From NCBI GenBank assembly GCA_016200965.1, contig JACQDT010000024.1:1-33634 (forward strand): a stretch of DNA of 33,634 nucleotides, written 5' to 3'. Origin of the DNA: Candidatus Azambacteria bacterium (GTDB lineage: Bacteria; Patescibacteriota; Minisyncoccia; GWC2-36-17; WO2-46-25). Of this stretch, positions 9,900-27,682 are shown piece by piece. The position numbers and the translations under genes are program-made. Under the pieces are notes generated by a model. That model had not been told where the DNA came from. It saw only the letters and a list, made by a program, of their open reading frames with translations, and made no database searches. The stretch's first letter is position 1. The number at the start of each line of letters is the position of its first letter.

Positions 9900-9903
9900 A
9901 TGA

Positions 9904-9925
9904 ACCCCCACACCATAACGAGTTT
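9904..9925 (+). repeat. left arm of the inverted repeat bracketing the GIY-YIG gene
   Basis: acccccacaccataacgagttt; complementary to 10188-10208 with a single 1-nt bulge. Confidence 0.9.
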
Positions 9926-9931
9926 CGCATT

Positions 9932-10189
9932 ATGTTCTACTTGTATATACTAAAGAGTGGACGGGATGGTAAATTGTACATCGGCTATTCAAATGATTTG
10001 CGAAAAAGAATAAAAGAACATAATACAGGGCTGGTGCGGGCTACAAAATCAAGAGTTCCATTCCGCGTGGTATATTACGAAGCATACGCGGAGAAAGAAG
10101 ACGCAACCAAAAGAGAACATAATCTAAAACTACGGGCGAAAGCGCTGAGACAGCTTTTGTTAAGAGTAAAAGCTAGTCTTAGGGCATAA
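9932..10189 (+). CDS. GIY-YIG nuclease family protein (UPF0213/YhbQ-like)
   Basis: MFYLYILKSGRDGKLYIGYSNDLRKRIKEHNTG: GIY-YIG variant (LYIL...LYIGYS), single-domain 85 aa. Confidence 0.9.
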   Translation: MFYLYILKSGRDGKLYIGYSNDLRKRIKEHNTGLVRATKSRVPFRVVYYEAYAEKEDATKREHNLKLRAKALRQLLLRVKASLRA

Positions 10190-10208
10190 ACTCGTTTGGT
10201 GTGGGGGT
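10188..10208 (+). repeat. right arm of the inverted repeat bracketing the GIY-YIG gene
   Basis: aaactcgtttggtgtgggggt; overlaps the GIY-YIG stop codon and the likely prgI GTG start at 10207. Confidence 0.9.
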
Positions 10209-10620
10209 GAAGCAATTTCAAGTGCCCCAATTCATAGACGTGGAAGACAGAATCTTGGGACCCATCACCATGCGGCAGTTTTTTATTATGCTCATCCCTT
10301 TTGGCACGGGTATTTTGCTCTATTTTTTGTTTAAATTCTGGGTGGTGATCATCGTCACCATACCCGTCATCATCGGTTCCGCCGTATTCGCGTTTTACCG
10401 GCCGTACGGAATGAAATTTTCCCGCTTTTTTTCCTCATTCCTTTCGTATATGATGAAACCTCACATGTATCTGTGGAAGCGGGAGGAACAAGCGCGCGTG
10501 GTATTTGAAAATCCGGCGGAGGCATCCCCACATCAGGAGAAAGAGAAAATCATGGGAAAAAGTAGCTTAAAAACGAAGAAAAGCAGTGTAGAAACGGGAA
10601 GTGTGTATCATGAAAATTAG
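10207..10620 (+). CDS. prgI: PrgI family protein (VirB3-like T4SS component)
   Basis: VKQFQVPQFIDVEDRILGPITMRQFFIMLIPFGTGILLYFLFKFWVVIIVTIPVIIG...FYRPYG is typical of the PrgI family. The ORF track starts at GTG 10201; GTG 10207 fits the family N-terminus better. Confidence 0.85.
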   Translation: MKQFQVPQFIDVEDRILGPITMRQFFIMLIPFGTGILLYFLFKFWVVIIVTIPVIIGSAVFAFYRPYGMKFSRFFSSFLSYMMKPHMYLWKREEQARVVFENPAEASPHQEKEKIMGKSSLKTKKSSVETGSVYHEN

Positions 10621-10627
10621 AACTATG

Positions 10628-10759
10628 CCCAGTATATCAACTTTCCGAGCCCAACGCCACACAAACCATATGAAAACGAAATACAGCAACAAAAATAGTA
10701 ACGCACACTTTACAGAACCCTGCCGAAAGGCGTTGGGCTCGGGAAGTTGATATACTGGG
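10628..10759 (+). repeat. 31-bp inverted repeat (stem-loop, 70-nt loop) between prgI and the traC N-terminal gene
   Basis: cccagtatatcaactttccgagcccaacgcc (10628-10658) against ggcgttgggctcgggaagttgatatactggg (10729-10759); 30 of 31 positions complementary, the other a T/G wobble. Confidence 0.95.
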
Positions 10760-10760
10760 T

Positions 10761-11411
10761 ATGCCGCAAAAGCTGAATGCACAATCAACACAACAATTGG
10801 TGGACGTGGAAGCTATCCGCGATGGCGTCGTCATACTCAAAAGCGGGGCCATGCGCACGATTTTGATGTGCTCGTCGGTGAATCTCGCGCTTAAATCACA
10901 GGACGAGCAAGACGCGCTCATATCCCAATACCAGCATTTCCTGAACGGGTTGGATTTCTCCGTGCAGTTTGTCGTGCACTCCCGCAAGCTTGATATCTCG
11001 GATTATTTAAACGACCTCGGGGAGTCGCTGAAAACTCAGGAAAACGAACTCTTGCGGATCCAAACGGAAGAATACATAGAATTCATTCGGAGTTTCGTCG
11101 GCATGCAAAATATCATGGCAAAAAACTTTTATGTCGTCGTCCCGTATCACGTGGGGGAAGATAGGAAGCGCTCGCTGGCGGACCGTTTGTTCGGAAAACA
11201 AACGGTATCGTTCATGAAAATGTCCGATGAGGAGTTTCAAAAATACAAAAACCAGCTGTGGCAACGAGTGGAAAACGTGATTTCAGGAATGCGTTCGTTC
11301 GGCGTCAGATCGCTTCCGCTTGCCAACACAGAGCTGATAGAACTTTTCTTTGATCTGTACAATCCGGGAGAAACAGGAAAGCAGTTTCTCACATCCGGCG
11401 ACATACAATGA
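10761..11411 (+). CDS. TraC/VirB4 N-terminal-domain protein (separate polypeptide)
   Basis: VDVEAIRDGVVILKSGAMRTILMCSSVNLALKSQDEQDALISQYQHFLNGLDFSVQFVVHSRKLD; directly upstream of, and overlapping by ATGA, the VirB4-like ATPase. Confidence 0.75.
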   Translation: MPQKLNAQSTQQLVDVEAIRDGVVILKSGAMRTILMCSSVNLALKSQDEQDALISQYQHFLNGLDFSVQFVVHSRKLDISDYLNDLGESLKTQENELLRIQTEEYIEFIRSFVGMQNIMAKNFYVVVPYHVGEDRKRSLADRLFGKQTVSFMKMSDEEFQKYKNQLWQRVENVISGMRSFGVRSLPLANTELIELFFDLYNPGETGKQFLTSGDIQ

Positions 11412-27509: not shown

Positions 27510-27682
27510 GTTCATAAAAAAACCCACCAACCTGTAGGCAATTAAGGTTTCCATGCCTTAATATGGGAATACATCTCAGTTTCGGGTAGTTTGGTTCCGA
27601 CTAGTCTACTCCTCGGATGTATTCTCTCCCTCTGACCTTGAGCCAGAGTTCCTTGCCTACAGGTTCGTGGGTTTTTGCTTTT
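27510..27682 (+). ncRNA. structured small RNA candidate, 6S-like architecture
   Basis: Closing stem 27521-27541/27653-27673 (20 of 21 paired); apical stem 27568-27575/27616-27623; side hairpins 27542-27547/27556-27561 and 27630-27634/27644-27648; T-rich end; no convincing ORF. Confidence 0.7.

Follow-up and report, generated by a model that had tools for sequence, protein, structure and literature searches.

A GIY-YIG nuclease gene between terminal inverted repeats in the prgI start codon of Candidatus Azambacteria: a probable minimal transposable element

Introduction

Bacterial IS elements and MITEs are typified by terminal inverted repeats (TIRs), short target-site duplications (TSDs) of constant length, internally deleted non-autonomous copies and nested insertion. 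GIY-YIG nucleases are familiar to us as homing and repair enzymes, and we know of none that is the sole enzyme of a TIR element. In the rRNA genes of CPR bacteria, insertions with GIY-YIG ORFs that are unlike group I or group II introns have been described, together with unexplained short insertions without ORFs (PMC11270868). The part of that source available to us describes no TSD, MITE or start-codon insertion, and the word 'inverted' is absent from its main text in the form accessible. A literature search recovered no description of a GIY-YIG transposon, bioRxiv and most subscription journals being outside its scope.

The locus described here shares the above-mentioned features with bacterial IS and MITEs but differs from IS in that its product is an 85-aa GIY-YIG protein, with no DDE, HUH, tyrosine, serine or DEDD transposase, in that it measures only about 300 bp in total, and in that its insertions fall within or next to start codons and leave a substitute start behind. 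With the GIY-YIG homing endonucleases (I-TevI and the free-standing phage Seg/Mob) it has in common a catalytic domain within a selfish, site-preferring element; however, it has no intron, intein or separate DNA-binding domain, and its family possesses TIRs, TSDs, many ectopic sites and MITEs.

Results

Extent, repeats and gene content of the element

The window, i.e. the entire stretch of 33,634 nucleotides that was analysed (contig JACQDT010000024.1, Candidatus Azambacteria bacterium), was originally predicted to contain a mobile or selfish cassette bounded by inverted repeats at 9904–9925 and 10188–10208, with a GIY-YIG gene between them. The arms were found at these positions and are real, except that their outermost A/T pair is flanking sequence; the element is thus delimited to 9905–10207 (303 bp on the + strand, as are all locus features below; termini CCCCCACACC...GGTGTGGGGG), same-family relatives being 303–305 bp long. 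The left TIR (9905–9925) carries an extra base, while the right TIR (10188–10207) overlaps the GIY-YIG stop codon, as had been noted in the original prediction. The repeats read CCCCCACACCA(T)AACGAGTTT ... AAACTCGTTTGGTGTGGGGG, with 21 of 22 positions complementary and one extra T in the left arm, and their local alignment score of 37 compares with scores of at least 32 in just 0.09% of 1131 random placements at GIY-YIG loci. The arm sequence does not recur within the window, occurs once in the host genome and was not found in viral contigs, where TIR matches were dismissed as unpaired chance matches. The extra base of the left arm (T or G) was retained in all 12 relatives' copies that were read, and several arm changes in the family are present on both sides, such that complementarity is kept through paired changes.

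The sole gene of the element is the 85-aa GIY-YIG ORF at 9932–10189; the element has the terminal repeats by which a TIR element is recognised but encodes no known transposase class. The protein belongs to the GIY-YIG superfamily (PF01541, E=1.1e-15), with residues Y5, Y16, G18, R26 and E50 invariant across 20 proteins, while TIGR01453 is a weak, sub-threshold match. Its AlphaFold2 model (mean pLDDT 95.5) matches GIY-YIG structures, the closest solved sequences and folds being those of UPF0213/COG2827 proteins (PDB 1zg2, 1ywl) and of SLX1. In contrast to the element, the UPF0213-like gene of the host (L007) has no flanking repeats. It may be speculated from this resemblance that such a fold would suit the recognition of hairpin-like ends, SLX1 being a branched-DNA nuclease. 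The ORF of the family is under purifying selection (dN/dS 0.07–0.23 where not saturated).

The window holds further repeats. Two near-perfect palindromes of the TTTGTCATTTTACCCCGATCGGGGTAAAATGACAAA type (867–918 and 1517–1562), mutually inverted and approximately 600 nt apart, enclose most of the ORF at 835–1491 and may represent another unit bounded by inverted repeats, and a 24-bp inverted repeat with 111 nt between its arms lies at 27518–27676.

Insertion in the prgI start codon

Although no target-site duplication had been evident in the original prediction, TGAA is present both at 9901–9904, within the original start ATGAA of the secretion-system gene prgI, and at 10208–10211. Removal in silico of the element together with one TGAA joins the flanks as ATGAAGCAATTTCAAGTG and restores a prgI start of MKQFQVPQ, the resulting stretch TTCTAAATGAAGCAATTTCAAGTGCCC containing the upstream stop codon and then prgI from MKQFQVPQFIDVED. 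MKQFQVPQ is likewise the start of the prgI orthologs in four operons that lack the cassette (G002, G006, G007 and G008), and the insertion is therefore placed within the prgI start codon (A^TGAA). Judging from these orthologous starts, the original ATG (9900–9902) is now severed and opens a 17-codon ORF running into the element, and prgI itself (PF12666, 10207–10620) now begins at a replacement GTG at 10207, built from the element's terminal G and the TG of the second duplication.

The cassette-free operons supply the empty sites that had been proposed as a check on mobility, while two further genomes carry different inserts at this junction, namely, in G004, a GIY-YIG cassette whose repeats are not those of the window element and, in G001, a small gene of four-helix-bundle-like type, indicating that the junction before prgI was struck independently. 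In G002, such a small gene (L056) lies between prgI and virB4, and that of G001 (L058) lies before prgI; these are the two junctions at which the window carries elements. Both resemble the IVP/S23 genes of 23S rRNA intervening sequences, as judged by eye from the sequence; their protein is unrelated to GIY-YIG.

Placement at operon gene junctions would also be compatible with a resident small gene framed by a regulatory hairpin or terminator of the host. This reading is contradicted by the empty sites in relatives, the TSDs and the copies at unrelated loci (below), and we attach practically no weight to it.

Relatives of the element at unrelated genes

Elements of the same family, 303–305 bp in length, were identified at L063, L064, L065, L066, L068 and L185. 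The family occurs in five other genomes, the nearest relatives, with which the repeats are shared, deriving from Nealsonbacteria, Wildermuthbacteria and other Patescibacteria. Four of the copies lie in the ATGAA start codons of other genes in the arrangement A^TGAA(element)TGAA, these being an unnamed 314-codon ORF (L063) and genes for an epimerase (L064), rplX (L065) and rnhA (L068), where gene names are our reading of the translated starts; at L066 the left TGAA has been lost. Thus, the second copies that the original prediction had suggested looking for exist in the genes of other genomes, with arms conserved within the family, and the element has both copies at several loci and empty sites, as expected of a TIR element. 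The possibility of insertion into a pre-existing palindrome was rejected, as the gene brings its repeats along to unrelated sites.

ORF-less derivatives of 133–139 bp were detected in G167 and G550, the latter genome also containing a full copy. Those of 133–134 bp next to rpsC and rplE are flanked by clean TAAA/TAAA duplications, and a related GIY element displays TAAA/TAAA at a ruvX-like start, while the flanks are imperfect at copies adjoining rplF, ftsH and a dehydratase gene. From the TGAA copies alone a TSD could not be separated from a fixed element end, since the duplication always consists of the same four bases; a TSD is favoured because the TAAA copies exist, and the family has duplications of constant length and variable sequence (TGAA and TAAA). 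The window cassette is thus a real mobile element, as originally hypothesized, and members of its family enter new sites and give rise to ORF-less MITEs.

The homing endonuclease fold of the GIY-YIG domain, the conserved genes at the sites and the occurrence of some GIY-YIG genes within rRNA and RNase P RNA genes would all be in keeping with a homing cassette, whose enzyme cleaves alleles of a single site that lack it, so that it is copied in by recombination between homologous flanks. A homing endonuclease gene would, however, be expected at a single cognate site without a short TSD, while here the same element is found in unrelated genes that share only about 4–5 bases, with 4-bp duplications; neither short TSDs nor MITEs are products of homing. 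Classical homing is therefore not the best fit, and we consider it distinctly unlikely.

A second element in the window and the CCCAGTA family

A 132-bp palindromic, ORF-less element of the CCCAGTA TIR family is located at 10628–10759 (arms 10628–10658 and 10729–10759), flanked by the duplication TATG at 10624–10627 and 10760–10763. The ATG within the right copy (10761) starts the virB4-type gene at 10761–11411. The 866-kb host genome contains about 24 paired copies with CCCAGTA...TACTGGG ends, 20 of 24 pairs having a perfect 4-bp TSD (TATG, CATA, CATG, CTTG or TGTG; in the gene-forward direction mostly TATG or CATG, i.e. YATG), and a duplication of constant length and variable sequence is thus present in this family also. 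At each of the 17 YATG-type insertions the duplicated ATG begins an ORF of 65 aa or more (100 aa or more in 15 of the 17), compared with 43 of 258 comparable YATG sites (17%) that are located at gene starts; the corresponding binomial value (about 1e-9) refers to 15 of 18.

A single host copy of the CCCAGTA family carries a GIY-YIG gene (C9:1323-1697, TSD CATA). The frame of this gene begins at the duplicated ATG on the left, and it therefore appears to borrow the start codon of the host; near its C-terminus it is interrupted by a nested 62-bp MITE with a TSD of its own. MITEs of 229–234 bp align to both ends of this copy. Being short, ORF-less and multicopy, with TIRs, a TSD and ends in common with a coding element, 10628–10759 has every attribute of a MITE. 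None of the CCCAGTA ends in the host bounds an element of IS size, all pairing at no more than 375 bp. A further CCCAGTAGTAGAAC... subfamily on host contigs C17, C28 and C38 comprises MITEs of 132–136 bp with TTTGAC inner stems and 4-bp TSDs, for which no GIY-YIG partner was seen in the host assembly.

Members of both families lie within or next to start codons, and the upstream stop and the downstream start thereby survive. The 4-bp duplication is established for these two TIR families only.

Small GIY-YIG genes in other TIR families

GIY-YIG matches (E<=1e-8) were present in 84 of 116 sampled genomes of the phylum. Other GIY-YIG ORFs with flanking repeats, which the original prediction had proposed to seek, proved common: inverted repeats (score at least 24) flanked 51 (59%) of 86 small GIY-YIG genes, which came from Patescibacteria, Bacteroidetes, Planctomycetes, Deltaproteobacteria and other groups, whereas the same score was reached by 1.9% of random placements and by 7.3% of cross-paired flanks. 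The remaining 41% lack a detectable inverted repeat, and many of these adjoin tRNAs or tmRNAs. An arm sequence common to all GIY-YIG genes was rejected; the arms are family-specific and only the CCC...GGG ends are shared.

Repeat similarity tracks protein similarity (Mantel r 0.62, 0 of 2000 permutations), an observation that bears on whether the GIY-YIG gene is merely a hitch-hiker on repeats acted upon in trans by an unrelated transposase. MITEs are commonly mobilised in trans, and the only CCCAGTA copy with a GIY-YIG gene in the host is interrupted, both of which would agree with such an arrangement, and, with a host genome that is 94% complete, a transposase gene could have escaped assembly. 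Nevertheless, the TIRs and the protein co-diversify, the ORF is under purifying selection, every CCCAGTA end in the host pairs at the short distance given above, and GIY-YIG is the sole gene inside such ends in many TIR families of several phyla. The hitch-hiker explanation is therefore considered improbable, albeit the most plausible of the alternatives.

Other GIY-YIG families are located inside 23S rRNA (L102), 16S rRNA (L126) and RNase P RNA genes (L158 and, in the host, L005), L102 and L126 being elements bounded by inverted repeats in the kind of gene for which insertions have been reported (PMC11270868). L005 (contig C24) and L158, whose TIR types are related, occupy an identical position in the RNase P RNA gene, immediately 5' of AGGAAAGTCCGGAC, and are oppositely oriented. 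At elements in rRNA, tRNA or RNase P RNA, duplications are absent or of other lengths, and no 4-bp duplication was visible in the common TTYACCC...GGGTAAA family when a TSD was sought. GIY-YIG genes without inverted repeats lie just upstream of a complete tRNA at L071-L073, L076-L079, L085, L086, L088, L095, L110 and L125, and in several cases (among them L072, L077, L088 and L075) the GIY-YIG gene is preceded by 18–36 nt that match the 5' part of a tRNA exactly or nearly so, as if the element had struck the tRNA and restored it. At L082, L087, L089 and L104 the end of a tmRNA gene is about 150–190 nt upstream of the GIY-YIG match.

The location of some relatives within 16S and 23S rRNA and RNase P RNA genes, and the paired changes that preserve arm complementarity, might suggest that the repeats form an RNA stem processed or spliced in the manner of 23S rRNA intervening sequences, with mobility incidental or ancient. 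The 4-bp TSDs and the start-codon insertions, however, show transposition at the DNA level, and RNA excision or splicing is unnecessary in the window since the host gene keeps a start codon of its own; we thus regard this explanation as very unlikely indeed.

Discussion

The cassette is, in our judgement, probably a minimal autonomous transposable element of approximately 300 bp, consisting of two imperfect TIRs and the gene of an 85-aa GIY-YIG nuclease. That this protein is the mobilising nuclease is inferred and not shown, there being no biochemical data on end cleavage. The inference rests on its being the sole gene inside such ends across many families, on the purifying selection and invariant catalytic residues of the ORF, and on the absence of any larger host element with CCCAGTA ends. 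Mechanistically, the GIY-YIG protein, probably as a dimer, would recognise the terminal repeats and cut both the element ends and the target with a 4-nt stagger, and host repair would then fill the staggered gap. The constant bulge of one base in these repeats may allow the protein to distinguish left from right ends. Insertion at start codons is presumed to reflect in part a true target preference and in part the survival of harmless insertions.

With somewhat less assurance, we lean towards the broader reading that the GIY-YIG nuclease is the transposase of a separate and widespread class of DNA transposons that, at about 300 bp, would rank with the smallest autonomous elements, and which selects start codons and non-coding RNA genes and restores the start codon or RNA end, one family borrowing the start of its host for its own expression. 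If so, it would represent a new catalytic fold among DNA transposases, in an 85-aa protein and an element of approximately 300 bp, spread over Patescibacteria and present in several other phyla. It would also offer an explanation for the unexplained GIY-YIG ORFs and the short ORF-less insertions in CPR rRNA genes, and would constitute a case of selfish DNA that spreads in very compact genomes by entering start codons and restoring them.
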